Part shown: positions 5,673 to 25,010 of the stretch, in pieces
Numbering within the stretch: position 1 is the first letter of the stretch
Layout: each line of letters opens with the position of its first letter
Translations under genes and position numbers: made by a program
The notes under the pieces: generated by a model
What the model was told of the DNA's origin: nothing
What the model saw: the letters and a program-made list of their open reading frames with translations, nothing else
Databases searched by the model: none
IMG/VR virus record: IMGVR_UViG_3300037585_000113
Location: 1 to 28,522 of that record
DNA length: 28,522 bases
Reading direction: 5' to 3' (one strand)
Origin: a virus

Positions 5673-5700
5673 CAAACAAATACTAATTTAATCTATTATA
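5673..5700 (+). promoter_or_regulatory. putative phage late promoter, site A
   Basis: CAAAC at 5673-5677 is followed after 15 nt by CTATTATA at 5693-5700. This is the weakest of five sites sharing the CAAAC-N15-CTATTATATTA pattern, because the right half is cut short (it continues AGAT). The right box ends only 4 nt before the ATG of the protease gene, so a transcript from here would be nearly leaderless, or the motif acts in another way. Confidence 0.5.
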
Positions 5701-5704
5701 AGAT

Positions 5705-6418
5705 ATGCCTTGCGAAGAATGTGAAAACGGAAAAGTAAAATGGGGAAAGACAGGAGAATGTCAATATGACTCCATAGCTGAATGTGAAGAAGCTAACAAA
5801 GACTATTACGAAAAGACTACATCTATTGTAGAGCTTGTAATAGATGAATCAAATGAATCTCTTGCAATTGATGCTATAAGCCTTGTATCAGCACCAGCCA
5901 TAGAAGAAAATATGGTCTACATGAGTAGAGCAAAAAACAACCTGACTTTAGCTAAGGTAGATGAAGAGCAAAAAGTTTTAATCAGCCCTGCTTTAATCCC
6001 TCTAAAGTCAATATACCGATATGATGCTGATACTGATTCTGACTATTATGTTTATTTCAGTAAAGATACAGTAAAAAAATGTGCTTATAGTTATTTAAAA
6101 AACAATAATCATCATAAAGCTACCTATGAACATCAAGAAAGAGTGTCAGGTGTTTTAACTGTTGAATCTTGGATAATAGAAGATAGTAAAACAGACAAAT
6201 CAACTCTTTACGGCTACTCACTTCCTTCAGGAACTTGGATGGTCAAAATGTCCATAACCAATGATGAGTTATGGAGTAAGATAAAAGCAGGAGAACTTAA
6301 GGGACTTTCAATTGAAGGTTTTTTTACTTCGAAGTATGAAGCTATGCAAAAAGCAGAACCAACCAATGAAGAGATACTAAAGGCTCTAAATGAAATAATC
6401 ACAAAATCAAACGGATAG
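5705..6418 (+). CDS. XkdF-like prohead serine protease (Peptidase S78_2 type)
   Basis: A 237-residue protein resembling the XkdF family of putative phage proteases. A small Cys-rich N-terminal segment (C3, C6, C19, C27) may bind metal. The central and C-terminal part carries HKATYEHQERVSGVL followed by a beta-rich part and KGLSIEGFF. H143 and S202 are the best candidates for the catalytic pair, by analogy with other S78-type maturation proteases. The gene lies directly before the scaffold and major capsid genes, the usual place for a head maturation protease. It would cut the scaffold and perhaps the capsid N-terminus during head assembly. The family call rests on motif reading. The gap from the tape measure gene (5669-5704) holds a promoter-like motif. 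Confidence 0.7.
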   Translation: MPCEECENGKVKWGKTGECQYDSIAECEEANKDYYEKTTSIVELVIDESNESLAIDAISLVSAPAIEENMVYMSRAKNNLTLAKVDEEQKVLISPALIPLKSIYRYDADTDSDYYVYFSKDTVKKCAYSYLKNNNHHKATYEHQERVSGVLTVESWIIEDSKTDKSTLYGYSLPSGTWMVKMSITNDELWSKIKAGELKGLSIEGFFTSKYEAMQKAEPTNEEILKALNEIITKSNG

Positions 6419-6440
6419 AACTTATTTCTATTATATTACA
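6408..6440 (+). promoter_or_regulatory. putative phage late promoter, site B
   Basis: CAAAC at 6408-6412 (inside the end of the protease gene), then 15 nt, then CTATTATATTA from 6428. The start codon of the scaffold gene is at 6465, leaving room for a normal leader. It would drive scaffold, capsid and the 8162 gene up to the terminator at 8759. Confidence 0.6.
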
Positions 6441-6464
6441 AACTCACACTAATAAAAAATTACT

Positions 6465-7163
6465 ATGGATTTAAAAGAACAAATTTTAGTAGCTCTTGGT
6501 CTTAACAAAAAAGAAGAAGAAGTTACTTTGGCTTGGCAGTCAAAAAGCGAAGATGGAACTATTTTCGTAAGTACCGCTGAAGAATTAGAAGCAGGGGTGG
6601 ACATCTCAGTATTAACGGAAGACGGAACGACTATCTTACTTCCTGTTGGAACATACAAGACAGATACAGGAGTATCTTTTAGAGTAGAAGAAGAAGGTAT
6701 TGTTGCTGAAGTTATCGAATCAGAAACAGAAGAAGAAGTTGAAGCATCAGAAGAATTATCAGAAGAATCAGTTGAATTAGCTCCTGAAGATGATGACAGA
6801 AAAGAAGAAGCTGACGTAGCCGATTGGAAAGGGATGGAAAAAAGAATCCAGAACCTAGAAGACGCAGTAGCAGACTTAAAAAGAGAAAAGGAAGGTGGTG
6901 ATGATGAGGTTGAAGAAATGGCTACTGAAGAAGTATCTGACAAACCTAAGTCTATTAAAACTACAGAAACAGTAGAATTTTCAGCAGAAGAAGTTGAAGC
7001 AATAAAAGCTGAAAACGAAAAACTAAAAACGGAACTAGCAGAACAACCTGCTGATGCTCCAATTAACACAAATAAATTTAGTGCAGATAGACCTGAACTA
7101 ACTAAAAAAGAATATAACAAGTTATCTAGACAAGAAAGGTTCTTATATAACTTAAATAAATAA
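6465..7163 (+). CDS. capsid scaffolding protein, 232 aa
   Basis: Very acidic, low-complexity protein dominated by Glu with Ala, Val and Ser. A coiled-coil stretch lies at about 120-150 (MEKRIQNLEDAVADLKREKE) and another at about 170-195. A more basic C-terminal end (KKEYNKLSRQERFLYNLNK) could contact the capsid protein. It sits between the protease and the major capsid gene, the standard place for a separate scaffold, and the capsid protein lacks a long N-terminal delta domain. Function is inferred from position, charge and coiled coil. The long antisense frame over it is a composition shadow of the Glu codons. Confidence 0.75.
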   Translation: MDLKEQILVALGLNKKEEEVTLAWQSKSEDGTIFVSTAEELEAGVDISVLTEDGTTILLPVGTYKTDTGVSFRVEEEGIVAEVIESETEEEVEASEELSEESVELAPEDDDRKEEADVADWKGMEKRIQNLEDAVADLKREKEGGDDEVEEMATEEVSDKPKSIKTTETVEFSAEEVEAIKAENEKLKTELAEQPADAPINTNKFSADRPELTKKEYNKLSRQERFLYNLNK

Positions 7164-7184
7164 TAACTTAAAAAATAAAAAATT

Positions 7185-8099
7185 ATGGCAATAGCAATGA
7201 CGAGTAACTATGCAGGGAAGGCAGCAGGATTCTACATATCCCAAGCCCTTCGCCAAGCAACTTCAATGGAATACTTGACAGTATTAGAAAATGTGAAATT
7301 TAAGAGTAATATCCAAAAGATGGATGCAACTTCAATGGTGCAAGATGCATCTTGTAATGTAAACTTAGATGGAACTCTTACAATGACTGAGGCGGTTTTA
7401 GAACCGACTAACCTAATGGTTCAGACGGATTTATGCTCAAAAACTCTTTTAGAGAGTTGGGAAGCTTTACAAATGAGAGCAGGAGCAGGAGCACCTCCAC
7501 CTGCAAGTTTTGATGATTACGTTATTTCTTACTTAGGTGAGATTATAGCAGATGCAACTGAAGCTTCAATTTGGGGTGGTAATGGTGCAACAAACGGAGA
7601 ATTTACAGGATTTGTACAAGGTGCAGTTGGTAGATTAGTAGTAGATGCAACTGTAGTAGATGTAACTAATGCAGGTGGAGCAGGAGTAGCATATGACGCA
7701 GATAACATTATAGCTAATTTACAAGCGTGTACAGCAGCTATCCCAACAGCAGTTTACACTAAAGAAGACTTATATATTTATATGAGTCCTAAATCTTACA
7801 GAGTATATATTCAAGCAATATCTGCTTTAACAGGAACTCCTTGGGGGAATATGAATGATAAATACTATCCAATCTTTGAAGGAATAAAAATCGCAGTCTG
7901 TACAGGTATGAATAATGATGTGTTAGTAGCAGCAGAAAGAGGAAATTTATTTTTCGGGACGGATTTGGTTTCAGACGCTGTAAATATCAATTTACTAGAT
8001 ATGAGTCAGCTTGACGGAAGCTCAAATTTGAGAGCAGTTTGTCGTTACTCAGGTGGTACACAAGTAGGTATTGGAGCTGACGTAGTTCTTGTATCGTAA
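7185..8099 (+). CDS. major capsid protein, HK97 fold expected, 304 aa
   Basis: Length, Ala/Gly/Asn-rich composition and position right after the scaffold fit a major capsid protein. The middle part (YVISYLGEIIADATEASIWGGNG, residues about 108-130) is the kind of spine-helix plus loop segment seen in HK97-fold capsids. The C-terminal segment FGTDLVSDAVNINLLDMS followed by a beta-rich end fits the P and A domains. There is no long N-terminal coiled coil, in line with a separate scaffold. A hairpin follows the gene at 8113-8132 and may limit read-through to the next gene. Confidence 0.8.
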   Translation: MAIAMTSNYAGKAAGFYISQALRQATSMEYLTVLENVKFKSNIQKMDATSMVQDASCNVNLDGTLTMTEAVLEPTNLMVQTDLCSKTLLESWEALQMRAGAGAPPPASFDDYVISYLGEIIADATEASIWGGNGATNGEFTGFVQGAVGRLVVDATVVDVTNAGGAGVAYDADNIIANLQACTAAIPTAVYTKEDLYIYMSPKSYRVYIQAISALTGTPWGNMNDKYYPIFEGIKIAVCTGMNNDVLVAAERGNLFFGTDLVSDAVNINLLDMSQLDGSSNLRAVCRYSGGTQVGIGADVVLVS

Positions 8100-8112
8100 A
8101 TAATATAAAGAC

Positions 8113-8132
8113 GGAGGGTGTAAAAGCCCTCC
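8113..8132 (+). terminator. hairpin between capsid and tail-tube-like gene
   Basis: GGAGGG (8113-8118) and CCCTCC (8127-8132) form a perfect 6-bp GC-rich stem with an 8-nt loop, followed by AACTTTTAA. The T tract is short, so it may be a partial terminator or an mRNA-stabilising 3' hairpin that raises capsid protein output relative to downstream genes. Confidence 0.6.
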
Positions 8133-8161
8133 AACTTTTAACCCTTAAAACATAAAATAAA

Positions 8162-8725
8162 ATGGCATGTACAGCTTTAACAAAAGGAAGGGGACTCGAT
8201 TGTAACAGAATTAGTGGTGGAATTAAATATATCTACTTTGCAGTTTATGACCAAGTAACTTCAATACCAACAGCAAACGGTGAAATTACAGACTTAGAAA
8301 TGGGTTCTAATAGTCTTTATAGATATACAATGCCACTAGGTGTTGCTAGTCTTACAGATACTATTACAGGTTCACGTGAAAACGGAACTATTTTTTACAC
8401 ACCTTCGGTAAATATTATACTTAACAGACTGACTAAGGAAGACCAAAATCAGATAAAATTATTAGGTGCAACAAAAGTAATTATATTTGCTCAATTAAAT
8501 GCAACATTATCAAACGGACACGATGTAATAGCATGTTTGGGAAGTGTAAATGGAATGGAACTTAACGCAGGTACTATGGATAGCGGTGCAAGTTTTGGTG
8601 ACAGAGGAGGTTATACTCTTACATTTGACGGCTTAGAAAATCAGCCTTTCCAAATGGTACCAGATTACACTACTAATGTATTTGATAACGCAGGATTTAC
8701 ATTAGCAGGAGTAGTTTCTTCATAA
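8162..8725 (+). CDS. structural protein, probable major tail tube protein, 187 aa
   Basis: It begins MACTALTKGRGLDCNRISGG and is mostly beta-rich with Thr, Gly and Asn (for example YTLTFDGLENQPFQM near residues 156-170). It has no predicted signal or membrane segment. It lies directly after the capsid gene, bounded by a hairpin upstream and a strong terminator downstream, as would suit an abundant virion protein. I associate proteins with this N-terminal pattern with virion structural proteins of Bacteroidota phages. The tail-tube call is inferred from length and the lack of a better candidate elsewhere. A head decoration protein is the main alternative. Confidence 0.55.
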   Translation: MACTALTKGRGLDCNRISGGIKYIYFAVYDQVTSIPTANGEITDLEMGSNSLYRYTMPLGVASLTDTITGSRENGTIFYTPSVNIILNRLTKEDQNQIKLLGATKVIIFAQLNATLSNGHDVIACLGSVNGMELNAGTMDSGASFGDRGGYTLTFDGLENQPFQMVPDYTTNVFDNAGFTLAGVVSS

Positions 8726-8758
8726 CACAATTAGTAGTTTTCATATATTTCTTTGATT

Positions 8759-8790
8759 AGGGGGCTTTTTTAGCCCTCTTTTCTTTTATA
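8759..8790 (+). terminator. intrinsic terminator
   Basis: AGGGGGCT (8759-8766) and AGCCCTCT (8772-8779) pair over 8 bp with one G-T wobble and a TTTTT loop, followed directly by TTTCTTTTATA. It lies between the 8725 stop and the next promoter-like site at 8793, which cleanly closes the scaffold-capsid-tube unit. Confidence 0.85.
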
Positions 8791-8792
8791 AC

Positions 8793-8825
8793 CAAACAAA
8801 AACAGAGTTTTTCTATTATATTATA
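8793..8825 (+). promoter_or_regulatory. putative phage late promoter, site C
   Basis: CAAAC (8793-8797), 15 nt, then CTATTATATTATA (8813-8825), preceded by TTTTT. It lies immediately after the terminator, as expected for a new transcription unit covering 8828 to the portal and beyond. The right box ends only 2 nt before the ATG at 8828, so the transcript could be leaderless. Confidence 0.65.
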
Positions 8826-8827
8826 GA

Positions 8828-9535
8828 ATGATACAAGCAACCACAGAATCTACCTTTAGAGTATATATATCTACCGAAGATAATCGTATAAATACTTCAG
8901 TAGCTTCAAGTCAAATACGGCATTTATTTAAGTTCATAAATGATATGGATGGTTCTGTTCAGTATGCTTATGGGGTTGAAGAAGACATCTACAATAGGTA
9001 TACAGGACTAACTTTTGATTATAATGCAGACCCTGTTGTTTATTCAGGAACAACAAAGTTAATACCTGCTGGATATTGGAAGTATGAAGTATATGAAGTG
9101 AGTTGGGCAGGAACTGTAAATGTTGCAGCAGGAACAGCTCCAGCAACTGAGCTAGATGTATTAACACCTGTTGGTGTTCTTAAGGGAGTAGTACAAGGCT
9201 TAGTAACTAAAGGAATATTAAATGTAACGGAAAAAGCAGGAGATGAACAAGTTCAATATATCCAAAATGCAAAAAGTGTTCAAACCTTGACTATCGCTTA
9301 TGCTGGAGAAGGATATAGTACAGCCCCAACAATAACAATAACAGGGGATTGTATAACACAAGCAACAGCAACTTGTACTGTTTCAGGCGGCGAAGTGAAT
9401 ACAGTAACAATAACAGATGCAGGAAGCGGATATACTACAAACCCTACAGTTACAGTAACAGGTGGGGGTGCTGACACAGATGCAAATATTACAGCAGATA
9501 TAGAACAAACAAATTATATATACTACGGACAATAA
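8828..9535 (+). CDS. virion-associated protein with GY-type beta repeats, 235 aa
   Basis: Residues about 1-100 form an unrecognised globular part. Residues about 155-225 hold two copies of a short beta repeat, AYAGEGYSTAPTITITGD and DAGSGYTTNPTVTVTGGG. The pattern GxGYxxxPTxTxTG is seen in tails and fibres of several phages and in bacterial surface proteins. No enzyme motif was seen. It is the first gene of a unit that ends at the portal, so a head or tail surface role is plausible. The exact start is uncertain because the promoter-like motif nearly touches the ATG. Confidence 0.6.
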   Translation: MIQATTESTFRVYISTEDNRINTSVASSQIRHLFKFINDMDGSVQYAYGVEEDIYNRYTGLTFDYNADPVVYSGTTKLIPAGYWKYEVYEVSWAGTVNVAAGTAPATELDVLTPVGVLKGVVQGLVTKGILNVTEKAGDEQVQYIQNAKSVQTLTIAYAGEGYSTAPTITITGDCITQATATCTVSGGEVNTVTITDAGSGYTTNPTVTVTGGGADTDANITADIEQTNYIYYGQ

Positions 9536-9546
9536 AATAAAATAAA

Positions 9547-9828
9547 ATGGCAATAGAAAATGTACAACAGCTCTTAACAGAGCAATTAGGAAAAAATGGT
9601 GGAACAGTAGTCTTTGATAGTGGAGATGGAGCACAAACAGGTGTAGATTGGTATTGTGTTTACTTCCCTGTAACGAGTGTAGTTTCCGCTATAACAGTAG
9701 CAGATGCAACAGGAGAATCAGCTTTAGTAACTACACTTCCTGCTGGAACAACTCTCTTTATGAACATAACAGCAATTACCATTACGAGTGGTGTTGGAGT
9801 AGGTTATCACGAAGGACCAACTACATAG
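9547..9828 (+). CDS. small structural protein, unknown, 93 aa
   Basis: A small, acidic-to-neutral protein rich in Thr, Val, Ala and Gly (SVVSAITVADATGESALVTT), probably all beta, with no signal peptide and no membrane segment. It lies between the repeat protein and the LamG-like protein with a 3-nt gap to the latter. The composition fits a virion decoration or tail protein, but I recognise no family. A longer out-of-frame reading over its 3' part (from 9648) is a shadow. Confidence 0.55.
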   Translation: MAIENVQQLLTEQLGKNGGTVVFDSGDGAQTGVDWYCVYFPVTSVVSAITVADATGESALVTTLPAGTTLFMNITAITITSGVGVGYHEGPTT

Positions 9829-9831
9829 AAT

Positions 9832-10509
9832 ATGTTAAAATTAGGATTAGATTTAAGTGTAGGAAACAATGGTGGATGGACACCTAATGCTGAATCAAGT
9901 TTAGTGGCTTGGTTTGAGAATAAAACAAATGTTGCCTTTCAGAATGCACCAAATGCGGATAAGGTTTATTATTGGTTATCCTCCCATACTACTAACATAT
10001 TTATTTCTGGAAGTGTTGCAGAATCACCTACATACGACCCACCATCAGGGGCTCTGAGATTTGACCCTTCTGCAACTCAACACATGTCTGGAAGTCAAAT
10101 ATCTTTAACAGGTGATTTTACTATTGGAATAAGGCTGAATTTAATAGCGGGGGTTATTCTAGGTGATAATACGGCTGATGGTGAATTTTTTAGAATGTTC
10201 TCTACTACTAAGTTAAGAGTAAAGATTGATAATGCAACAGCAGTAGATTTAGAATTGGATAGTGGGTTTTGGGGTGATGGTTATATGGTTGTCACAAGAG
10301 AGAGTAATGTTTTAACACTTTGGTGGAATGGGGTTGCGCAAACTACTGCAACACCTACATTATCAGGAACAGCAGACATAGATTCACTAGGCATTAGAAA
10401 ACTTGATACGAACCCTTTTGAGGGTTCAATAAGTGAAGTCCAAATATTCAGTAGTGCAAGTGACGCTTTAACAAAGAATATTAATCTTAGATTAGCAAGT
10501 ATCGTATAA
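9832..10509 (+). CDS. LamG/concanavalin-like lectin-fold protein, 225 aa
   Basis: The sequence follows the pattern of LamG/concanavalin A-like jelly rolls. An early segment reads SLVAWFENKTN; a middle strand reads SGSQISLTGDFTIGIRLNL (about 84-102); and WGDGYMVVTRESNVLTLWWNG (about 147-167) is followed by GSISEVQIFSSA near the C-terminus. These fit strands in which phage and bacterial LamG domains bind glycans. No signal peptide is present, so it acts in the virion and is not secreted. It is probably a head or tail surface adhesin that holds the phage near glycan-coated cells. The family call is by pattern, and the ligand is unknown. Confidence 0.65.
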   Translation: MLKLGLDLSVGNNGGWTPNAESSLVAWFENKTNVAFQNAPNADKVYYWLSSHTTNIFISGSVAESPTYDPPSGALRFDPSATQHMSGSQISLTGDFTIGIRLNLIAGVILGDNTADGEFFRMFSTTKLRVKIDNATAVDLELDSGFWGDGYMVVTRESNVLTLWWNGVAQTTATPTLSGTADIDSLGIRKLDTNPFEGSISEVQIFSSASDALTKNINLRLASIV

Positions 10510-10519
10510 AAAATAAAAT

Positions 10520-12379
10520 ATGAAAGATAATATCATTAACATCAATTTAGAAACGAGTACAGCTCCTACAGTTCAAGAGGTAAGAGGTAGAGATTGGATA
10601 GAATACGGAACAGAAGATTGGAGAAACCTCTATCCTCAGTTCTTAATTGACCTTTACTATTCAAGTTCAATTACAGCGGCTATTGTTAATTCAACAGCAG
10701 AGATGATTGCAGGTGAAGCCCTTATTATAGAAGATGAAGATGATAGGGACTTAGAAGCTAGAGTTAAGTTACAGAACTTTATGGATAGAGCTAATGGAAA
10801 TGAAAGCCTACATGAAGTTATAAAGAAACTATCTTTTGACTTTAAGCTACAGGGTGGGTTCGCTTTGAATTTGGTGTGGTCAAAGGATAGAACTCAAATA
10901 GCTGAAATCTATCACATTGACGTTTCTAAGCTAAGATGTGCAAGACCTGATGAATTCGGAAAGACTAAAGGCTATTACATATCAGCAGATTGGTCAAACA
11001 CTAGAGCTAACAAGCCTTATTATGTACCTGCCTTTAATGCTAATGATAGAACTTCAGCAAATCAAATAATGTATTCAGGACTTTATAGCCCTAATATGAA
11101 TTCCTATTATACACCTGATTGGGTATCTTGCTCAAATTGGAGTCTTATAGATGGACGTATATCTGAGTACCATCTCAATGCAATCAGCTCAGGATTCTCA
11201 GGTTCTTTTATGGTAAACTTTAGTAATGGCATACCGACAGCTGAAGAGCGTCATCAAATAGAACAAAGCCTTACAGATAAGTTCACAGGACAAAACAATG
11301 CAGGGAAGTTCATTTTGACGTTCTCAGACGATAAGACTAGAACACCTGAAGTACAAGCAATAACACCATCAGACCTCGATAAGCAGTATTTGGCACTCCA
11401 AGAACTACTCACTAGCAACATTTTAAGCGGACACAGAGTAACTTCTAAGACTCTTATGGGTATAGATACTGCTAATGGTTTTTCAAGCAATACAGACGAG
11501 ATTATCAACGCTGCAAATTTCTATCTCAATACTGTGGTTAAGCCATTCCAAGACCAATTAGTTAAACAACTAAGAAAAATATTCCAAATTAACAATATGG
11601 ATATGCCTGTAAACTTTGTACAGCTTAAACCTATTACAGTTCAATTTGATTCTAAGACTATCAGAGAAGTTATGACTCAAGACGAAATACGTGAAGAGCT
11701 TGGACTTGAGCCTTTAGGTGATGAGGAAGTAGTTGATGAAACTTTAGAATTTAGTAAAGTAGAAAAAACAGAGCTAGAAAGTTGGATTGAAGAGTTCGGT
11801 GAAGATATTCCTGAAGATTGGGAAATAGTAGATGAAGAAAATGTAAATGATGAACACGAGGATTTTGATTTTGAAGCAGAATTAAATAAATTAGTTGAAG
11901 GTAAAACAGAACTAGCTTCAACAGGAACAGCAAGACCAAACCAAAGAAGTACACAAGATGGTGTAAATGATTCTTACAATGACTATTTTAAAGTAAGATA
12001 TATGTATACTAAAGATACTGCATTAAGCCAAGAAGGAGAAACTAGAGAATTTTGCAGATTAATGACTTCAGCTAATAAAATTTATAGAAAAGAAGATTTG
12101 CTACAATTAACTAATAAGCCTGTAAATGCAGGGTGGGGTCCACGTGGTGCTGCAACCTATTCTATATGGCTTTACAAAGGAGGAGGTAACTGTCATCATT
12201 ACTTCAGAAGAGTAGTTTATAAAACATCTCTAAGAAATGCAAAGTCTAATATAAATAGTAAGCAGATAATATCAGACGTAAAAGCACTTAGTGAAGGATT
12301 TACATTAAAAAGAAATAGTGGCTTAGTAGCAAAAGCACCTAAGAGAATGAAAAATAACGGATTTTTAAACCCTAGATAA
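10520..12379 (+). CDS. portal protein with C-terminal extra domain, 619 aa
   Basis: Residues about 30-400 look like an SPP1/HK97-type portal. YPQFLIDLYYSSSITAAIVNSTAEMIAGE is near the start; a helical clip/stem part includes LQELLTSNILSGHRVTSKTLMG; and TQDEIREELGLEPL (about 394-407) is a phrase typical of portal C-termini. An acidic linker follows (about 410-465). The last 140 residues form a distinct domain with FKVRYMYTKD, WGPRGAATYSIWLYKGGGNCHHYFRR and Cys/His residues around 558-560 that could bind metal. This added domain may be a fused head-morphogenesis or connector module. The gene lies downstream of the capsid and tail genes, not after the terminase. Confidence 0.8.
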   Translation: MKDNIININLETSTAPTVQEVRGRDWIEYGTEDWRNLYPQFLIDLYYSSSITAAIVNSTAEMIAGEALIIEDEDDRDLEARVKLQNFMDRANGNESLHEVIKKLSFDFKLQGGFALNLVWSKDRTQIAEIYHIDVSKLRCARPDEFGKTKGYYISADWSNTRANKPYYVPAFNANDRTSANQIMYSGLYSPNMNSYYTPDWVSCSNWSLIDGRISEYHLNAISSGFSGSFMVNFSNGIPTAEERHQIEQSLTDKFTGQNNAGKFILTFSDDKTRTPEVQAITPSDLDKQYLALQELLTSNILSGHRVTSKTLMGIDTANGFSSNTDEIINAANFYLNTVVKPFQDQLVKQLRKIFQINNMDMPVNFVQLKPITVQFDSKTIREVMTQDEIREELGLEPLGDEEVVDETLEFSKVEKTELESWIEEFGEDIPEDWEIVDEENVNDEHEDFDFEAELNKLVEGKTELASTGTARPNQRSTQDGVNDSYNDYFKVRYMYTKDTALSQEGETREFCRLMTSANKIYRKEDLLQLTNKPVNAGWGPRGAATYSIWLYKGGGNCHHYFRRVVYKTSLRNAKSNINSKQIISDVKALSEGFTLKRNSGLVAKAPKRMKNNGFLNPR

Positions 12380-12381
12380 CT

Positions 12382-13710: not shown

Positions 13711-13712
13711 AA

Positions 13713-14105: not shown

Positions 14106-14128
14106 TAATAATTTAAAAAATTAAACAA

Positions 14129-15210: not shown

Positions 15211-15256
15211 TTGTTAATAACTTTGTAAATAATTGTGTTAATATAGTTGTTAATTC
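15211..15256. repeat. three TTG(TG)TTAAT repeats beside early promoter
   Basis: TTGTTAATA (15211-15219), TTGTGTTAATA (15233-15243) and TTGTTAATT (15247-15255) lie within 46 bp in very AT-rich DNA and run into the early promoter. Their starts are 22 and 14 nt apart. They could be operator sites for a regulator or be part of an AT-rich origin element. Confidence 0.5.
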
Positions 15257-15276
15257 AAATATTAGTTGTATGTTTG
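15247..15276 (+). promoter_or_regulatory. early promoter, Bacteroidota type
   Basis: TTG at 15247-15249, then 19 nt, then TATGTTTG at 15269-15276. This is an exact match to the Bacteroidota -7 box TAnnTTTG, with an upstream TTG at normal spacing (17-23). Transcription would start near 15282 and give a leader of about 50 nt before the ATG at 15335. It would drive the early block with the host's main sigma factor. A second TAACTTTG at 15218 lacks an upstream TTG. Confidence 0.65.
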
Positions 15277-15526: not shown

Positions 15527-15536
15527 AAAAAAGAAA

Positions 15537-16907: not shown

Positions 16908-16920
16908 TAAATAAATAGAT

Positions 16921-18397: not shown

Positions 18398-18765
18398 TGA
18401 GATTAATTAAAACAATGTCAAAAGAAGATTTAATATTATCTTCAGTTGATTTAGTAAGTAAGACTTACATAGAGTTAGGGCAAAACAATGTAGAAGAAGA
18501 AACTATTGAAATAATGTCTACAAGTTTAGCTGCTGACTTAGCTAGAATGTATAAAAATTTCTATTTTGAAGATGCGGAAAATGCTTTTAATTTAGGAGTA
18601 AGAAGTCCTATAACAAATGACTTTATACATTTAACTGTTCCAACTTATATGAAATGGCTTAGAAGACACCAAGAGATAATATGGGATGCTAGGTCAAGAG
18701 TAGATAAAGGGGAAAACCCCAAACAAGTACCACACTTTAGACCAGAACCAAAACTACTCAAATGA
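18397..18765 (+). CDS. putative replication partner/helicase loader-like protein, 122 aa
   Basis: Soluble helical protein. ARMYKNFYFEDAENAFNLGVRSP (about 50-72) is followed by a short basic helix, YMKWLRRHQEIIWDARSRV. It directly follows the initiator and is joined by TAATG, the position of the helicase loader P in lambda-like systems. No AAA+ motifs are seen, so any loader role would be of the P or DnaI-unlike type and is inferred from position only. An internal ATG at 18415 is an alternative start. Confidence 0.45.
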   Translation: MRLIKTMSKEDLILSSVDLVSKTYIELGQNNVEEETIEIMSTSLAADLARMYKNFYFEDAENAFNLGVRSPITNDFIHLTVPTYMKWLRRHQEIIWDARSRVDKGENPKQVPHFRPEPKLLK

Positions 18766-18821
18766 TAGGGTGGGTGATAGTAACAGCCATTGTAATGTGG
18801 CTAATAAGAAAATTAAAATGA
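18762..18821 (+). CDS. micro-ORF, 19-aa membrane peptide
   Basis: The ATG overlaps the previous stop as ATGA, and the frame ends by ATGA into 18818. The peptide is MIGWVIVTAIVMWLIRKLK, a hydrophobic helix with a basic end. The double ATGA coupling strongly suggests translation even if the peptide is only a bridge for ribosomes. A longer reading from GTG at 18770 is in another frame and is not needed. Confidence 0.45.
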   Translation: MIGWVIVTAIVMWLIRKLK

Positions 18822-18985
18822 CAAAACAAAAACTTTACAACCCTGATAAATGTAGCTCGTTTGAAATGCAGTTTGGATTTGAACAACCTTTAAAATATAT
18901 TCCTAATAAACGAAAACAAATTAGATATGAAAACAAAAGATATAGTCAAAGCTCTGTTAATACAGAAACCTCATTTACGAGATAG
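18818..18985 (+). CDS. small basic protein, 55 aa, unknown
   Basis: It starts by ATGA after the membrane micro-ORF. It is rich in Lys, Tyr, Gln and Asn (MTKQKLYNPDKCSSFEMQFG, IPNKRKQIRYENKRYSQ) and has no recognised family. The 3' half overlaps the next gene by 59 nt in another frame. A DNA- or RNA-binding role would fit the charge but is not shown. Confidence 0.45.
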   Translation: MTKQKLYNPDKCSSFEMQFGFEQPLKYIPNKRKQIRYENKRYSQSSVNTETSFTR

Positions 18986-19235
18986 TGACCCTAAGCTGAT
19001 AGCTACCTATTGGTTTAATGAACTAAAGAAAAAGAATATAGACCCTGCTGAAATAAATGGGCTTGAATTTATGAAGATGTTTGCTGATAGTAAACTGACA
19101 AACATTAAGACTATTGAAAGAATGCGTAGGAAGTTACAAGAAGAATGTCCTGAGCTTAGAGGTAAACTTTACAAAGTAAGAAAAGAAACAATACAAGACC
19201 AATGGAAGAAAGATTTGGGATATGAAGTCAATTAG
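18927..19235 (+). CDS. helical protein, 102 aa, unknown
   Basis: A charged helical protein (IATYWFNELKKKNIDPAEIN, FMKMFADSKLTNIKTIERMR, KLQEECPELRGKLYKVRKE) of a type I associate with phage replication regions, lying before ninG-like genes. It overlaps the neighbours on both sides. No catalytic motif was seen. It may act in DNA replication or recombination by context alone. Confidence 0.55.
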   Translation: MKTKDIVKALLIQKPHLRDSDPKLIATYWFNELKKKNIDPAEINGLEFMKMFADSKLTNIKTIERMRRKLQEECPELRGKLYKVRKETIQDQWKKDLGYEVN

Positions 19236-19626
19236 TAAATTAAAAAAAGAACTAGACAAATGGTTTAGCCTTTACATAAGGCTTAGAGATGCAACAGATG
19301 AAGGACTTGTACAATGCTTTACTTCAGGAAGAGTATATCACTACAAGAGTATGCACGCAGGTCATTTTATGTCAAGAAAAAGATTATCTACTCGGTGGTG
19401 TGAAGCTAACGTACAACCACAATCCCCTGCTGATAATCTTTTTGGTCAAGGGGAACAATATAAATTTGGATTGAATTTAGATGCTAAATACGGAGATGGT
19501 GCAGCTGAAGAACTTCAGTTAAAGTCAAGGCAAACAATGAAGATGACTAGAAGTGATTATGAAGAAAAGATAGGTTATTACAAAGCTGCTGTTGAAAAGT
19601 TAAAAAAAGATAAGGGAATTGAGTAA
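19222..19626 (+). CDS. ninG: NinG-like recombination protein lacking key cysteines, 134 aa
   Basis: The NinG/Rap family pattern is clear around residues 30-85: C32-F-T-S35-G, then MHAGHFMSRKRLSTRW, then NVQPQS68PAD71N and LFGQGEQYKFGLNLD. In the family I know, the positions at S35, S68 and D71 are usually Cys and form a zinc site with C32. Here only C32 is kept. The HAGHF and GQGEQYKFGL blocks remain, so the fold is probably conserved but metal binding is likely weakened or changed. NinG aids recombination and Holliday junction processing in lambda-like phages. Confidence 0.7.
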   Translation: MKSISKLKKELDKWFSLYIRLRDATDEGLVQCFTSGRVYHYKSMHAGHFMSRKRLSTRWCEANVQPQSPADNLFGQGEQYKFGLNLDAKYGDGAAEELQLKSRQTMKMTRSDYEEKIGYYKAAVEKLKKDKGIE

Positions 19627-19636
19627 ACTTTTATTT

Positions 19637-19644
19637 TAAGTTTG
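19637..19644 (+). promoter_or_regulatory. possible second early promoter box
   Basis: TAAGTTTG exactly matches the Bacteroidota -7 box TAnnTTTG. The nearest upstream TTG (19619-19621) is 15 nt away, slightly short of the usual 17-23. The box lies in one of the few gaps of the early block, 3 nt before the ATG of the gene at 19648, so a transcript would be leaderless. It would drive the sigma-like gene downstream. Confidence 0.35.
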
Positions 19645-19647
19645 CGT

Positions 19648-20004
19648 ATGCAGAAAACGATTTATGCAAATGAAAAACATAAACAAGCAATAGAAACTTA
19701 CTTGTTAATGTGTGAAGAGTTTGTAAAAGAAACAAGCACTAAAGCAAGATACCAAAACTACTTAGATGTTATAGATGTCATTTTAGAATACCACAACTCT
19801 TACGGAACAGGAACTAAGGAGCATAACTTCTTTGATTGGCTTATGATAATACCTATTAATGTATCAGTAGCAACTAATGGTTATTTTGCAGCTTTAGAAA
19901 CTAAAGGAAACAGGGCAATTCTAAGGGCATACAAAGTAGTATTAGATGAATTACTTAATGAAACAGTAGACAAGATTGATAAAATAGAAACAACTGATGA
20001 CTGA
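19648..20004 (+). CDS. unknown protein, 118 aa
   Basis: ATG start at 19648 (a TTG at 19642 would extend it by two residues and overlaps the promoter-like box). Helical protein with KARYQNYLDVIDVILEYHNSYGTGTKEHNFFDWLM in its middle (cut here for length) and a helical C-terminus. The word YGTGT recurs in the protein at 20577 (NYGTGTNCGS). It overlaps the sigma-like gene by 8 nt, which suggests linked expression. No family recognised. Confidence 0.55.
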   Translation: MQKTIYANEKHKQAIETYLLMCEEFVKETSTKARYQNYLDVIDVILEYHNSYGTGTKEHNFFDWLMIIPINVSVATNGYFAALETKGNRAILRAYKVVLDELLNETVDKIDKIETTDD

Positions 20005-20584
20005 GATATATGCAGAAATAGCAAAGCTATCAGATAAGTTTAGGTCTATGGCTTACGGACTTACAACAGATGAAAACAAAATACATGAAGCAGTTCAGGA
20101 ATTAATGCTCTACCTTCTTCAAGCAAACCCTGACACCATAAAAAAGATTTATGATAATGATGGTATTGAAGGGATTACAAGATATGGGGCAGTAGCATTA
20201 AGAAGGGCTTTAACAAGCACAAGGTCTAATTTTTATTATAAGTATGAAAAGTATTATACACATATTGATAGCTCTTGTTTCAATACTAACTACACTAGTA
20301 AGTTTTCTGATGCTAATGATAATTTGGGATATAGCATTGCTAATAATAAAAACATTGCAAACATTCCAAATGAAAAAGTAGATAATTACCAATGGACAAA
20401 GCTAGAAGAAATAGACAAAGCCTTAGAAGGTTTCACGTGGTACGATAAGAAAATATTTGAGCTTTATTATTATGAAGGAAATACATTAGACTCACTAGCA
20501 GAAAAAACTAGCATAAGTCGTAACAGTCTTTTTACTACAATAGATAAAGTAAGAACAATACTTAAAAAGAAACTAAATGAATAA
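19997..20584 (+). CDS. sigma-like transcription factor, 195 aa
   Basis: The C-terminal part (about 145-195: FTWYDKKIFELYYYEGNTLD, SLAEKTSISRNSLFTTIDK, VRTILKKKLNE) fits sigma-70 region 4, with a helix-turn-helix for promoter recognition. The N-terminal 90 residues could be a region 2-like helical part but are less clear (VQELMLYLLQAN, RYGAVALRRALTSTRSN). It overlaps its neighbours by 8 nt on both sides. A phage sigma made early is a natural candidate to read the five CAAAC/CTATTATA sites of the late region. The family call is moderately sure; the promoter link is inference. Confidence 0.6.
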   Translation: MTEIYAEIAKLSDKFRSMAYGLTTDENKIHEAVQELMLYLLQANPDTIKKIYDNDGIEGITRYGAVALRRALTSTRSNFYYKYEKYYTHIDSSCFNTNYTSKFSDANDNLGYSIANNKNIANIPNEKVDNYQWTKLEEIDKALEGFTWYDKKIFELYYYEGNTLDSLAEKTSISRNSLFTTIDKVRTILKKKLNE

Positions 20585-20978
20585 ATTTTTTGTGACTGAT
20601 GAAATATATGAAGAACGTCTTGCAATCTGTAAAGAATGTGTATATTATTTTAAGCCTACAGGAAATTGTAAGCGGTGTCTATGTTTTATGAAGCTGAAGG
20701 CACGTCTTGCTCCAATGGCTTGTCCACAGAAGTATTGGGATAAGACTACAGAGGTTACAGCTCCTGATGATTTACCTCAGCACTTGATAGATGAAGTCCT
20801 GGATATTTGGGATGACTTAAAAACAGGAAGGGCAAAAGATGTTGCTGCTAAAAAAAGAATGATAACTTTGTACAATGTAATACACATGACTAATTACGGA
20901 ACAGGAACTAATTGCGGTTCTTGTATATCAACTTGTTTTGATGGAATAAAAAAACTATATAAGAAATACAATGAATAA
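20577..20978 (+). CDS. zinc-binding protein with two Cys clusters, 133 aa
   Basis: The N-terminal cluster CKECVYYFKPTGNCKRCLCFM plus a later ACP fits a four- to five-Cys zinc ribbon of a type I associate with small phage proteins (C..C, C..C.C, CP). A second cluster near the C-terminus reads NCGSCISTCFDG. The two parts are joined by a helical stretch. It starts by an 8-nt ATGAATAA overlap with the sigma-like gene, so it is made together with that factor. It may act in transcription or DNA binding; no family is assigned with certainty. Confidence 0.55.
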   Translation: MNKFFVTDEIYEERLAICKECVYYFKPTGNCKRCLCFMKLKARLAPMACPQKYWDKTTEVTAPDDLPQHLIDEVLDIWDDLKTGRAKDVAAKKRMITLYNVIHMTNYGTGTNCGSCISTCFDGIKKLYKKYNE

Positions 20979-21153
20979 AAAAAGCTACAAATCAATAAAA
21001 TCAGTTCTGAGGTTTCATATTAAAAAGAATGTGAAAAGCCTTTGGACTTGGGATAAAAGTGATGACGAAAACTTTACCTGTATCTATGAAAACTATTCGG
21101 GTGATGACAGAATCTATACAAGCCAACAACTCTTAAAACTTTTAGAAAAATGA
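20971..21153 (+). CDS. small protein, 60 aa, unknown
   Basis: It opens by an ATGAATAA overlap, the same junction as at 20577. The N-terminal half is basic (NKKSYKSIKSVLRFHIKKNVKS) and the C-terminal half acidic to mixed (DKSDDENFTCIYENYSGDDR). No membrane segment and no family recognised. Confidence 0.5.
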   Translation: MNKKSYKSIKSVLRFHIKKNVKSLWTWDKSDDENFTCIYENYSGDDRIYTSQQLLKLLEK

Positions 21154-21293
21154 TTACACTACTAAAAATAACATTAATCTGTATGGTACTATTTATCTTA
21201 TTTGTACTGTATATGCAAAACAGAAGAATAAACAAAAGCAACCAAGAACTATATGATAACCTTAAAAAATTAGATGATGCCGATAGACTATAA
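21150..21293 (+). CDS. small single-TM protein, 47 aa
   Basis: It opens by ATGA from the previous gene. One hydrophobic helix (LLKITLICMVLFILFVLYM, about 4-22) is followed by a charged helical tail (QNRRINKSNQELYDNLKKLD). This N-anchored, cytoplasm- or periplasm-facing coil layout recalls inner spanins or small early membrane proteins. The early location argues against lysis. Its end overlaps the start of the DUF3310 gene. Confidence 0.5.
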   Translation: MITLLKITLICMVLFILFVLYMQNRRINKSNQELYDNLKKLDDADRL

Positions 21294-21549
21294 AGAAACA
21301 ACAGAACCAAGTTACTACTCAGGAAAAAAGTATGGGTACTCAGCTAGAAAAGTAGTTGAAGATTTTAACTTGTCTTACAATGTAGGTACAGCAGTCAGCT
21401 ATCTACTCAGAGCAGGAAAGAAAGAAGGTAACCCTGCTGAACAAGATATACAAAAAGCTATCAATCATTTACATTTTGAGCTAGACAAGCTATTTAAAAA
21501 AAGTGAAACTAGAACAGGTGGTTTATCACCAACAGGAGCGCAGTCATGA
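21274..21549 (+). CDS. DUF3310-like protein (nucleotide kinase-annotated family), 91 aa
   Basis: The pattern fits DUF3310: an E/Y-rich start, then VVEDFNLSYNVGTAVSYLLRAGKKEG (about 28-53), then AEQDIQKAINHLHFELDKL (about 55-73). Family members are often annotated as phage nucleotide kinases, though I see no P-loop here. Two ATGs at 21274 and 21277 give the same protein with or without one Met. It overlaps the membrane protein upstream and is joined by ATGA downstream. Confidence 0.7.
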   Translation: MMPIDYKETTEPSYYSGKKYGYSARKVVEDFNLSYNVGTAVSYLLRAGKKEGNPAEQDIQKAINHLHFELDKLFKKSETRTGGLSPTGAQS

Positions 21550-21773
21550 AAAAAGAAACAATAGAGCTAGTAACCTGGAAACAGATAGTTAAAAAATATA
21601 ATTATAAGGAAAGTAAGAATAAAGGCACAAGATTTGGCATACAATTAAAATTAGAGGGAATGAATGATATTGATTTTATATGGTGTGAAACAAACTTAGA
21701 AAGAAAGAAATTAGTAAAGACCATAATGAGGATAGCAAAAGATGAAGGTAGGGATTTACAATTAATAGATTAA
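21546..21773 (+). CDS. small protein, 75 aa, unknown
   Basis: Soluble, charged alpha/beta protein (ELVTWKQIVKKYNYKESKNK, FGIQLKLEGMNDIDFIWCET, LVKTIMRIAKDEGRD). Joined by ATGA to the DUF3310 gene, with a 1-nt gap to the zinc protein downstream. No family recognised. Confidence 0.5.
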   Translation: MKKETIELVTWKQIVKKYNYKESKNKGTRFGIQLKLEGMNDIDFIWCETNLERKKLVKTIMRIAKDEGRDLQLID

Positions 21774-21774
21774 G

Positions 21775-22023
21775 ATGACAAAGTACGTCTGTAAATGTGG
21801 TAAAGAAAAAGACTTGGCAAAAGTTACCATAGTATTTAAAGATAAATGGGTTGCTAAAGAAGCACTATGTAGTTGTGGTCTTTATATGGATAGCGAACCT
21901 GAAGAAGGTATGCCTAGTCTTAAACGTACAGAACCATCACTAAGTAAAAGGCGTGATATGCTATGGGATTCAGCAAAAGAAAAACTATGCGGTGAAAGAG
22001 GAATTAATGAACCATTTGACTAA
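21775..22023 (+). CDS. small zinc-ribbon protein, 82 aa
   Basis: Two Cys pairs, CKCG (about 6-9) and CSCG (about 32-35), form a typical zinc-ribbon pattern separated by a beta part. The C-terminal half is charged and helical. It is coupled by TAATG to the DNA methyltransferase. The ribbon could bind nucleic acid or act as a partner, but no family is known to me. Confidence 0.55.
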   Translation: MTKYVCKCGKEKDLAKVTIVFKDKWVAKEALCSCGLYMDSEPEEGMPSLKRTEPSLSKRRDMLWDSAKEKLCGERGINEPFD

Positions 22024-23096
22024 TGAAAGAACATAAGTTTAAATATGAATGGACGTTAAAAGATGCTAACTTTACAAAGGACAAAGGTAAAGTATTTAGT
22101 TGCTTTGCTTGTGGTGGTGGTTCTACAATGGGATATAAGTTAGCAGGATTTGATGTAATAGGTTGTAATGAAATAGACCCCAAAATGATTGAAGCATATA
22201 AAACAAATCACCATCCAAAATACAGTTACTTAGAACCAATACAAACTTTTAAACTTAGAAAAGATTTACCAAAAGAATTATATGACTTAGATATTTTAGA
22301 CGGCTCACCACCTTGCAGTAGTTTTTCTATGGCAGGAAATAGAGAAAAGGATTGGGGAAAAGAAAAGAAATTTAGAGAAGGTCAAGCTAATCAAGTATTA
22401 GATAATCTATTCTTTGACTTTATAGACTTAGCTAAAGAACTTCAACCTAAAGTAGTGGTCGCTGAAAATGTAAGTGGTTTAATGATGGGGGCTGCAAAGG
22501 AATATGTAAAAAAGATTTATCTAGCTTTTAAAGAAGCAGGATATCAATTAAGAATAGAACCTTATTTATTAGACGCAAGTACAATGGGTGTACCTCAAAG
22601 AAGAAGAAGGGTTTTCTTTATAGCTTTAAGAAATGATTTAGCTAATCCATTTATGGAACAAGTGGATATGTTTCAAGAAGCACCAAAGCTAGACTTAAAA
22701 TTTAATGAAAAAGAAATAACTTATAAAGACATAGAACAACCAAATACAAAGCAAGATAATATAACTCACATTCCTGAAGGTGTTCTGCCTTATTGGAAAC
22801 AAATAAAAGAAGGTAGAAGTTGTGCAGACGCACACGAAAAAGGACATTTTTTTCAAGAGTTAAAGTTAGATAGAAATAGGGCTTTGCCAACACTAAGAGC
22901 AGGAAGTAATAGTTATTACCATTATAAAGAAGAACGTCGTTTATATGATATTGAAATAATACTAGGTGGCAGTTACCCAAAAGATTATAATTTTTTAATA
23001 AATAAACCTATCTACTTAATAGGAATGAGTGTACCACCTATAATGACAGCACAAATATCAAGCAGAATATATGAACAATGGTTAAGTAATATATGA
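22023..23096 (+). CDS. C5 cytosine DNA methyltransferase, 357 aa
   Basis: The conserved motifs run in order: motif I FACGGGSTMGYKLAGFDVIG (SAM site, about 28-47), motif IV GSPPCSSFS with catalytic C98, motif VI AENV (147-150) and motif VIII VPQRRRRVFFIA (190-201). A C-terminal segment, LIGMSVPPIMTAQISSRIY, matches motif X. It transfers a methyl group from SAM to C5 of cytosine in DNA. No restriction enzyme gene is near, so it is solitary, most likely protecting phage DNA from host restriction. The target site cannot be read from the sequence. It is coupled to neighbours by TAATG and ATGA. Confidence 0.9.
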   Translation: MKEHKFKYEWTLKDANFTKDKGKVFSCFACGGGSTMGYKLAGFDVIGCNEIDPKMIEAYKTNHHPKYSYLEPIQTFKLRKDLPKELYDLDILDGSPPCSSFSMAGNREKDWGKEKKFREGQANQVLDNLFFDFIDLAKELQPKVVVAENVSGLMMGAAKEYVKKIYLAFKEAGYQLRIEPYLLDASTMGVPQRRRRVFFIALRNDLANPFMEQVDMFQEAPKLDLKFNEKEITYKDIEQPNTKQDNITHIPEGVLPYWKQIKEGRSCADAHEKGHFFQELKLDRNRALPTLRAGSNSYYHYKEERRLYDIEIILGGSYPKDYNFLINKPIYLIGMSVPPIMTAQISSRIYEQWLSNI

Positions 23097-23476
23097 AGTT
23101 TGTAATAAAAGACAATAGAGACAAGCAAAGCCTATTCAGTTACCTAAAAGAATTAGAGAACGACTACATAGTAAGTGTAAAGAAACAAAGAAACAATAGA
23201 AGCAATATGCAGAACAATTACTATTGGGCTTGTATAGTACAACCATTAGGATTAGAGCTAGGATATTTCCCAGATGAATTACATGACGCTTTAAAAATTA
23301 AGTTTTCAAGTGAATGGCAAAGCATAGAGATAAACGATAAACAAATAGGACTGCAAACAGTAAACAGTACAGCAAGAATGAATACAAAAGACTTTGAGGT
23401 ATATGTAGACCAAATAAGAATTTGGGCTTTAACAGAATTAGGTGTAAGATTAATGCTGCCAAATGAATTCAAGTGA
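23093..23476 (+). CDS. ninB: NinB-like recombination protein, 127 aa
   Basis: The family pattern shows at RNNRSNMQNNYYWACIV (about 34-50), a middle FPDELHDALKIKFSSEW, then NSTARMNTKDFEVYVDQIRIWALTELGV and a PNEF end. This fits the NinB/Orf family of ssDNA-binding recombination proteins that help annealing at replication forks. It is the last gene of the early block, joined to the methyltransferase by ATGA, and the late promoter of the packaging unit begins inside its end. NinG- and NinB-like genes in one phage match lambda-type recombination equipment. Confidence 0.7.
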   Translation: MKFVIKDNRDKQSLFSYLKELENDYIVSVKKQRNNRSNMQNNYYWACIVQPLGLELGYFPDELHDALKIKFSSEWQSIEINDKQIGLQTVNSTARMNTKDFEVYVDQIRIWALTELGVRLMLPNEFK

Positions 23477-23492
23477 TTTCTATTATATAATA
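23460..23492 (+). promoter_or_regulatory. putative phage late promoter, site D
   Basis: CAAAT (23460-23464), 15 nt, then CTATTATATAATA (23480-23492), preceded by TTT. The left box is in the end of the NinB-like gene. The start of the small terminase gene lies at 23521, leaving a leader of normal length. This would open the packaging and tail unit. Confidence 0.6.
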
Positions 23493-23520
23493 GCAACTTG
23501 ATTAATCAAATTATTTCAAA

Positions 23521-23778
23521 ATGACACACGGAGGAAAAAGAGCAGGGGCAGGGCGTAAAGCAAAAGCAGAAGAACAAAAGCTAATAGAGAATTTAACACC
23601 TATGAACCCAATGGCTTTAGAGTCATTAAAAAAAGGCTTAGAAAAAAAAGAACAATGGGCGGTTAAGTTATTCTTTGAATACTTTTACGGAAGACCACAA
23701 CAAAGAGTAGATGTTACTTCAAATGAAGAAAGCCTGAATATGCCACTTATAACATTTATAGAAACTGATACTGAGTAA
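23521..23778 (+). CDS. terS: terminase small subunit, 85 aa
   Basis: It starts MTHGGKRAGAGRKAKAEEQK, the Gly/Arg-rich opening seen in many small terminase subunits, followed by a helical part and YGRPQQRVDVTSNEE, also typical of this group. It is short compared with most TerS proteins. It would bind the packaging site and form a ring that feeds DNA to TerL. It lies directly before the large subunit, which begins by overlapping its stop codon region. The packaging site itself was not identified. Confidence 0.7.
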   Translation: MTHGGKRAGAGRKAKAEEQKLIENLTPMNPMALESLKKGLEKKEQWAVKLFFEYFYGRPQQRVDVTSNEESLNMPLITFIETDTE

Positions 23779-24967
23779 AAAATACAATCCTTTATTTGAA
23801 TCTGATTGCCGTTATTTTATAATAACAGGTGGTAGAGGTTCAGGTAAGTCTTATGCAGCAACAGTATTCTTGACTTTACTAACTATGACAAAGGGTATTA
23901 GAATACTCTTTACAAGATATACTATGACTTCAGCTCACTTATCTATTATTCCTGAATTCTTAGAAAAGATAAGCCTTTTAGGATATGAAGATGTGTTTAG
24001 TGTAAATAAAGCTGAGGTGGTAAACACAAAGAACAAGTCAGATATTTTATTTAGAGGTATTAAGACATCAGCAGGAAATCAGACAGCTAGTCTAAAGTCT
24101 TTGACAGGGGTTTCTAATTGGATATTAGATGAAGCTGAAGAACTTATTGATGAGAATATCTTTGATACAATAGACCTTAGTATTAGAGAAAAAGACATAC
24201 ATAATAGAATCATACTTATATTGAATCCTGTAACTAAAGAGCATTGGATATACGACAGGTTCTTTGAGAGCAAAGGCGTTGAAGGTGGTTTTAATGGCGT
24301 TAAAGACAATGTATGCTATATACATAGTACATACCTAGACAATAAAGAAAACCTCTCACAGAGCTTCCTAGAGCGTATTAAGAGCATAAAGCATACTAAC
24401 TTTAAAAAGTACACTCACAAAATTATGGGGGGCTGGTTAGACAAAGCGGAAGGTGTAGTCTTTGAGAATTGGAGTATAGGAGAATTTAATCCTGATGACT
24501 TACAAACTTCTTGTGGAATGGACTTTGGCTTTAGTATAGACCCTGACTCACTAACTGAAGTAGCTATTGATAAGAAGCATAAGAAGATATATCTTAAAGA
24601 ACACATATATCGTAATGGACTAAAAAGTCAAGAACTAGCTAAGATAATATTAGACAAAGTAGATGATACTTTGATAATAGCCGATTCAGCAGAACCAAGA
24701 CTAATAGCAGACCTTAAACATTTAGGTGTAAACATCAAGCCTGTTAAAAAAGGAACTATTGAAAGTGGCATAACTAGAATGCAAGATTATCAATTAATAG
24801 TAAGCCCTGAGTCTACAAACATAGCTAAAGAATTGAACAATTATGTATATGCAGATAAGGGTTCAAAATTATATGTGGACAATTACAACCACGCAATAGA
24901 CGGAATAAGATACAACATAATATACCACTTAGATAATCCAAATGCAGGGAGGTACTTTGTTCAATAA
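23771..24967 (+). CDS. terL: terminase large subunit, non-standard start, 398 aa
   Basis: Walker A GGRGSGKS (residues 20-27 if the start is 23771), Walker B WILDEAEE near 118-125 (D120, E121) and a nuclease part with MDFGFSIDPDSL, IIADSAEPRLIADL and AIDGIRYN near the end show an ATPase-nuclease packaging motor. The reading frame opens at 23762 after a TAG, and contains no ATG, GTG or TTG before the TTG at 23870, which lies after Walker A. The product LSKKYNPLFESDCRYFIITG is what I would expect for the family's N-terminus, so a CTG start at 23771 (overlapping the terS stop) is the best guess. A +1 frameshift from terS is an alternative. Confidence 0.85.
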   Translation: MSKKYNPLFESDCRYFIITGGRGSGKSYAATVFLTLLTMTKGIRILFTRYTMTSAHLSIIPEFLEKISLLGYEDVFSVNKAEVVNTKNKSDILFRGIKTSAGNQTASLKSLTGVSNWILDEAEELIDENIFDTIDLSIREKDIHNRIILILNPVTKEHWIYDRFFESKGVEGGFNGVKDNVCYIHSTYLDNKENLSQSFLERIKSIKHTNFKKYTHKIMGGWLDKAEGVVFENWSIGEFNPDDLQTSCGMDFGFSIDPDSLTEVAIDKKHKKIYLKEHIYRNGLKSQELAKIILDKVDDTLIIADSAEPRLIADLKHLGVNIKPVKKGTIESGITRMQDYQLIVSPESTNIAKELNNYVYADKGSKLYVDNYNHAIDGIRYNIIYHLDNPNAGRYFVQ

Positions 24968-24975
24968 CTAATGAG

Positions 24976-25010
24976 TAAACTAAAAATTAACTTTTTCTAT
25001 TATATTATAA
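24976..25010 (+). promoter_or_regulatory. putative phage late promoter, site E
   Basis: TAAAC (24976-24980), then 16 nt, then CTATTATATTATAA (24997-25010), preceded by TTTTT. It has the best right half but one base of extra spacing and a T for C in the left box. The tail chaperone gene starts at 25020. Confidence 0.6.

Follow-up and report, generated by a model that had tools for sequence, protein, structure and literature searches.

Introduction

Several phages serve their later gene classes with sigma factors of their own, T4 gp55 and SPO1 gp28 and gp33-34 among them, and promoters read by extracytoplasmic function (ECF) sigma factors typically carry an AAC -35 box. In phiEco32 and its relatives SU10 and 7-11, a phage sigma factor (gp36 in phiEco32) has dedicated middle and late promoters, and the SU10 protein has been annotated as an ECF sigma factor (PMC4281155, PMC4331800). 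The phiEco32 motif, tAATGTATAtA, is a single element that lies 6-8 nt before the start and is also used by middle genes (PMC4281155, PMC4331800). Here we analyze the IMG/VR virus record IMGVR_UViG_3300037585_000113 over its full 28,522 nucleotides (the window), in which a two-box motif, CAAAC-N15-CTATTATA with close variants, stands before five transcription units and gene 19997 encodes a divergent ECF-type sigma factor. From the sequence we consider it very probable that the five sites are promoters of a late regulon, read by the phage's own ECF sigma factor on the host RNA polymerase core. The early-to-late transcription switch of abundant uncultured marine Bacteroidota phages, with five predicted starts, would thus be readable from sequence alone.

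A two-box motif at five units

The pattern [CT]AAA[CT]-N15/16-CTATTATA has exactly five matches in the window, all on the plus strand, which also carries all main genes, and none on the minus strand. The left boxes CAAAC, CAAAC, CAAAC, CAAAT and TAAAC start at 5673, 6408, 8793, 23460 and 24976, and the C of CTATTATA follows at offsets of 20, 20, 20, 20 and 21 nt, respectively. This exact search confirmed the sites, left boxes and offsets given in a preliminary description of the same DNA, two points of which had to be amended. The two-box form with CTATTATA is exact at all five sites, whereas the full 11-mer CTATTATATTA named in that description is exact at only three (6428, 8813 and 24997), with the variants CTATTATAAGA at 5693 and CTATTATATAA at 23480. 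All five sites had been described as intergenic, and two are not purely so: site 6408 overlaps the end of gene 5705-6418 and site 23460 that of gene 23093-23476. Starts (+1) were predicted by placing CTATTATA at -12 to -5, like the flavobacterial sigma-A box.

5673..5700, plus strand: putative late promoter 1, protease gene; CAAAC-N15-CTATTATA, exact; predicted +1 at 5705 on the A of the start ATG, giving a leaderless mRNA
6408..6435, plus strand: putative late promoter 2 of the genes 6465 and 7185 (structural); CAAAC-N15-CTATTATA; predicted +1 at 6440, 25-nt leader
8759..8779, plus strand: intrinsic terminator directly 5' of late promoter 3; best match of the terminator scan
8793..8820, plus strand: putative late promoter 3, 8828 gene through portal; CAAAC-N15-CTATTATA; predicted +1 at 8825, 3-nt leader
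23460..23487, plus strand: putative late promoter 4, before the terminase unit; CAAAT-N15-CTATTATA; predicted +1 at 23492, 29-nt leader
24976..25004, plus strand: putative late promoter 5, unit from 25020, tail region; TAAAC-N16-CTATTATA; predicted +1 at 25009, 11-nt leader

The gene content of these units (protease, portal, terminase) suggests that they are late. Three genes behind the promoters were assigned by profile matches.

5705..6418, plus strand: prohead protease-like gene (Peptidase_S78_2), first behind promoter 1; Pfam PF14550, E 2.5e-18
10520..12379, plus strand: portal protein gene, promoter 3 unit; phrog_33693 portal, E 7.6e-67
23870..24967, plus strand: large terminase gene, promoter 4 unit; phrog_3717 and phrog_2 terminase large subunit, E ~1e-32

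The listed start of the terminase gene is a TTG, and its frame is open from 23771, so the true start may be upstream. The strong terminator that had been noted directly before site 8793 is borne out by the top match of the terminator scan and by the fold of 8735-8800 (z = -3.56).

The possibility that AT-rich words recur by chance was weighed against these counts. The preliminary description had made its proposal depend on the motif being rarer in shuffled AT-rich sequence, and for the right box alone this does not hold: CTATTATATTA with up to two mismatches occurs 42 times in the window, with 39.7 expected from shuffles. For the two-box motif it does hold, since 300 dinucleotide shuffles gave a mean of 0.057 matches and a maximum of 1, against the five observed. 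Likewise, the real right box gives five two-box matches among 280 permutations of its letters and each of the other 279 gives at most one. Because the right box alone is not enriched, the case for the motif is carried by the two boxes together and by the orthologous conservation described below; these already refute chance, which we give practically no weight. A further copy of CTATTATA at 11104, within the portal gene, has no left box. Counts of TTTCTATTATA in single relatives were uninformative, and a scan for E. coli-type sigma-70 promoters (84 sites, 82 in shuffles) carries no information. The window ends, 1-127 and 28396-28522, have an exact 127-bp direct repeat in common, from which the record is probably a whole, circularly permuted genome of ~28.4 kb and the count of five sites probably genome-wide.

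Conservation at orthologous positions

Three homology scans of IMG/VR, with the sigma, portal and terminase proteins, gave ~240 loci of an uncultured marine group. The window proteins were placed on these loci by tblastn, and the 140 nt 5' of each ortholog were compared after near-duplicates had been removed by ungapped identity, with at most one mismatch per box allowed in a two-box call. The motif precedes the orthologs of 5705 in 23/30 cases, 6465 in 23/23, 8828 in 40/41, 23521 in 10/11 and 25020 in 29/29, i.e., in 77-100% of the non-redundant cases across the five late-unit genes, and before all other genes in the relatives it stays at about shuffle level. In alignments of the upstream regions the boxes are fixed and the spacers drift, with the offset of 20 or 21 kept per site; the 24976-type site retains the TAAACTAAA form with the 1-nt longer spacer in nearly every relative. 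The conserved core across the phage group is CAAA[CT]AAA...TTTCTATTATAT. A second subclade, whose sigma protein is ~53% identical, has the motif before 5/5 orthologs of 23521 and 18/18 of 25020, and near zero elsewhere.

A homology-blind scan of IMG/VR with the DNA pattern CAAAYN12TTTCTATTATATA gave at least 87 sites. Among the 87 matches listed, 86 belong to the present phage group: 79 lie directly before orthologs of 8828, 23521, 6465 or 5705, and 7 are in the same phages with a first gene that is different or cut off. The remaining match listed is in an unrelated contig. In several of these 7 the small terminase-like gene behind promoter 4 has been swapped for an unrelated one, so that the promoter stays while the gene is exchanged. 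Loci L282, L283, L296, L301 and L308 have such a substitute (METEQKRTQEGKKKLLAAL...), with its ATG immediately after the promoter. The motif is found at structural and packaging units only and is conserved at orthologous positions, as befits a late promoter class. The dedicated class proposed in the preliminary description is strongly supported by this conservation at the same five late-unit genes over a background level before others, by the homology-blind scan, and by the host-type promoter at the early block.

The early block and its host-type promoter

The sigma-A box of Flavobacterium psychrophilum, TAnnTTTG, lies at -12 to -5 (PMC9723704), and a promoter of this type fronts the early block of the window.

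15247..15276, plus strand: host-type (Bacteroidota sigma-A) early promoter TTG-N19-TATGTTTG, fronting the early block, of which the sigma gene is part

A host-type TTG...TAnnTTTG promoter was found in the early intergenic regions of 31/54 non-redundant relatives, compared with 1.45 in shuffles, and the late motif in 0/54 of the same regions, which is not above background. The window early block likewise lacks it, as had been observed before. Conversely, none of the 134 late upstream regions carries the host promoter TTG-N17-22-TAnnTTTG, so that the late motif is indeed distinct from the host pattern. The sigma gene overlaps its upstream neighbor 19642-20004, and cotranscription with the early operon is the simplest reading. 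A gene for a C-5 cytosine methyltransferase, 22023-23096, is present in only 8 of the ~240 loci and is probably a recent insertion into this operon.

A search of genome contigs for hosts or prophages returned two contigs only, L241 and L242, which are probably phage contigs mis-binned into metagenome-assembled genomes labelled Euryarchaeota and Pseudooceanicola. The assignment to a Bacteroidota host therefore comes solely from the promoter type and from a cultured relative.

The ECF sigma factor gene

19997..20584, plus strand: 195-aa divergent sigma factor of the ECF type, the proposed late sigma factor; TIGR02937 and fold search

The NCBIfam profile TIGR02937 (sigma70-ECF) matches residues 13-193 of the protein over profile positions 12-165 of 165 (E 2.3e-8). 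All 56 relatives scanned match it at E<=0.001, and the protein of the L242 relative, 53% identical to that of the window, scores 51.4 bits, above the curated cutoff. A phmmer search of PDB sequences gave no meaningful match, and a fold search was therefore used. The AlphaFold model (mean pLDDT 69) consists of two helical segments with a disordered linker between them (85-130), and its best Foldseek matches in the PDB are sigma factors, headed by 6dv9_F, the ECF sigma-L of Mycobacterium tuberculosis (probability 1.00, E 1e-3). Taken singly, one sigma domain aligns to 8jzt_C at a TMt of 0.85; over the whole chain the TM is low (0.33), as the model does not predict how the domains are oriented. 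A tblastn search with the window protein against all phage-collection records returned no similarity. By its size, its sigma-2 plus sigma-4 layout and the near-full profile length, the predicted protein classes as an ECF sigma factor, and its modeled fold appears related to those of solved ECF sigma factors. What had been described as sigma-like can thus be specified by profile and fold search as a full-length divergent ECF sigma factor, and the sister group discussed below likewise has an ECF-like gene together with a late motif.

The strongest local similarity of the protein is its C-terminal helix-turn-helix, its Pfam matches cover a region 4-like part only, and residues 135-193 match phrog_36, 'transcriptional regulator'. 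These features would also fit a sigma-4-like activator in the style of ArpU, RinA or Xpf that binds the left box and recruits the host sigma-A holoenzyme. Such an activator is improbable in our assessment: the ECF profile spans residues 13-193 and passes the cutoff in one relative, conservation is equal in the N- and C-terminal halves, and the host TAnnTTTG element is replaced by the right box instead of being retained (0/134).

The next gene 3' of the sigma gene, 20577-20978 (DUF6171 match), is conserved just as widely (133 loci), and its product is a candidate transcription co-factor.

Predicted starts and leaders

With CTATTATA at -12 to -5, the +1 would be the A located 12 nt after the C of CTATTATA. 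The base at this position is an A at all five window sites and a purine in 98% of 54 family sites with a longer leader. Counted from the end of the right box, the predicted position is the fifth nucleotide, within the 5-12 nt range given earlier. From the C of CTATTATA to the ATG there are 11-13 nt in 39/125 family sites; another 31 have 14-16 nt, and the 12 nt of promoter 1 are the mode among the orthologous upstream regions. The codons after such close ATGs are under protein-level constraint, with third positions most variable, which argues that these ATGs are real. Many late mRNAs, including those from promoters 1 and 3 of the window, are accordingly spaced in a way that predicts them to be leaderless or nearly so.

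In flavobacteria few mRNAs are leaderless, 5.5% in the case of F. psychrophilum (PMC9723704). How virion proteins are translated in hosts without Shine-Dalgarno signals would become apparent from late genes starting at their own AUG, and if the prediction is true, the position of the promoter itself sets leaderless translation of virion genes.

Within the predicted leader of the terminase unit, at 23498-23509, there is a perfect palindrome, TTGATTAATCAA, with ATTATTTCAAA after it. Directly behind the late promoter it is kept in at least 41 distinct contexts. No RNA structure was found in this leader, and the palindrome is therefore possibly a DNA-level operator or packaging site.

The sister group P12024S/L

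By portal protein, named relatives are limited to the Nonlabens phages P12024S and P12024L (Inhavirus), with a portal 29% identical. Shortly 5' of their terminase genes lies gp33, annotated with sigma-70 region 2, which matches ECF profiles. The sequences upstream of their late genes revealed another motif, AAAAC-N16/17-CGTTAATA, with five exact copies in P12024S against 0.01 expected. It is conserved in seven related loci, mostly 4 nt 5' of the ATG, and appears to be undescribed, as no published description was found.

145-174, 2997-3026, 5378-5407 and 21247-21276 in P12024S (L243): putative late promoters AAAAC-N16/17-CGTTA[AC]T[AT]
23928-23956, 25167-25196 and 26768-26797 in P12024S (L243): putative late promoters, continued

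In IMG/VR the DNA pattern of the P12024 type has lower specificity, with 31/82 sites in P12024-like contigs; 29 of these 31 are within 12 nt of an ATG, and the other sites are mostly chance-like. By profile, the window sigma protein and P12024S gp33 are similar with an E of 9e-5 over 52 residues, a weak similarity that leaves common descent of the two genes unproven. A different ECF protein combined with a different but equally built promoter supports the pairing of sigma factor and promoter. We think it likely that these are two related Bacteroidota phage groups, each with an ECF sigma factor and a co-diverged late promoter (CAAAY-N15-CTATTATA and AAAAC-N17-CGTTAATA), and with transcription starting on or near the start codon.

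The sister group also bears on two other explanations. Flavobacteria have several ECF sigma factors, and one CGT -10 motif is known in F. psychrophilum (PMC9723704), so a host alternative sigma factor could read the late promoters in place of the phage protein. We regard this as highly unlikely, given that the motif is essentially confined to the present phage group among the matches listed from the viral records of IMG/VR, that the sigma gene is widespread in this group, and that the motif differs between the two phage groups just as their ECF proteins do. Still less credence is given to the repeats being operators for a repressor or activator, or sites of DNA packaging or recombination. They are short, repeated, strand-oriented and close to gene starts, as such sites could be, but they keep a fixed phase to the gene starts, with a purine at the predicted +1 and two boxes at promoter spacing; moreover, the late sites have no host-type promoter, and the sister group has the same geometry with another sequence.

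Proposed mechanism

Promoter recognition by the phage sigma factor, the start sites and the timing are what we infer for the following scheme. Early in infection, the host housekeeping sigma factor would read TTG-N19-TATGTTTG at 15247, giving the early operon that includes the sigma gene. Its product (19997-20584), bound to the host RNA polymerase core, would then open the five late promoters of the protease, capsid region, portal, terminase and tail units by reading both boxes, the left box CAAA[CT]AAA (about -32 to -25) serving as a -35-like and CTATTATA (-12 to -5) as a -10-like element. The first transcribed base would be the A found 12 nt beyond the C of CTATTATA. This A opens the start codon at the protease gene of the window and in many relatives, where a leaderless mRNA would result.

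The following points weigh against this scheme. The window sigma protein scores 33.9 bits, below the curated TIGR02937 cutoff of 42.9; its AlphaFold model is of middling confidence (pTM 0.39), with undefined domain orientation; it aligns with P12024S gp33 only over the first 52 residues; and the relatives share ancestry, so that the site counts are not independent evolutionary events.

The cultured sister group P12024S/L makes the late-promoter and leaderless predictions directly testable. If the scheme is true, the two phage groups form a natural series for the co-evolution of ECF sigma factors and promoters, and the two sigma-promoter pairs could be separate expression parts for Bacteroidota.

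Comparison with known systems

The literature searched, which covered few subscription papers, contained no account of late promoters of ECF type in Bacteroidota phages. P12024S/L resemble the window in having an ECF-like protein near the terminase, about seven putative late promoters and the same distance to the ATG; they differ in the CGTTAATA -10 box, in a -35 box located 1-2 nt further upstream, and in a sigma factor that is only remotely similar. The CGT -10 box is taken as an ECF promoter mark in Flavobacterium (PMC9723704). The sister clade has clear AAAAC and CGTT elements; at the late sites of the window group AAAC or AAAT is followed by CTA, and in the offset-20 sites the base 16 nt ahead of the C is T in 67% and C in 33%. 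With the ECF (group 4) family, the 19997 protein has in common its size and the sigma-2 plus sigma-4 layout and perhaps, in its putative promoters, an AAC-type -35 and a C-starting -10 element at ECF spacing, whereas it has no recognized anti-sigma partner gene, and its role would be that of a viral developmental switch.

T4 gp55 and SPO1 gp28 and gp33-34 would be alike in working, with different sigma classes and promoter sequences. Late promoters dedicated to a phage sigma factor are already known, and phiEco32 gp36 is the closest in logic. The window sigma factor and promoter do not match the phiEco32 type, the protein having no tblastn match in the phage collection and the promoter differing from TAATGTATA. 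Unlike phiEco32, the window has two boxes, apparently of ECF type, found at late units only, in Bacteroidota phages with many predicted leaderless mRNAs. The likeness seen is one of working: in both, a phage sigma factor sends (in the window, presumably) the host core RNA polymerase to a motif at structural genes, and the early genes are left to host promoters.

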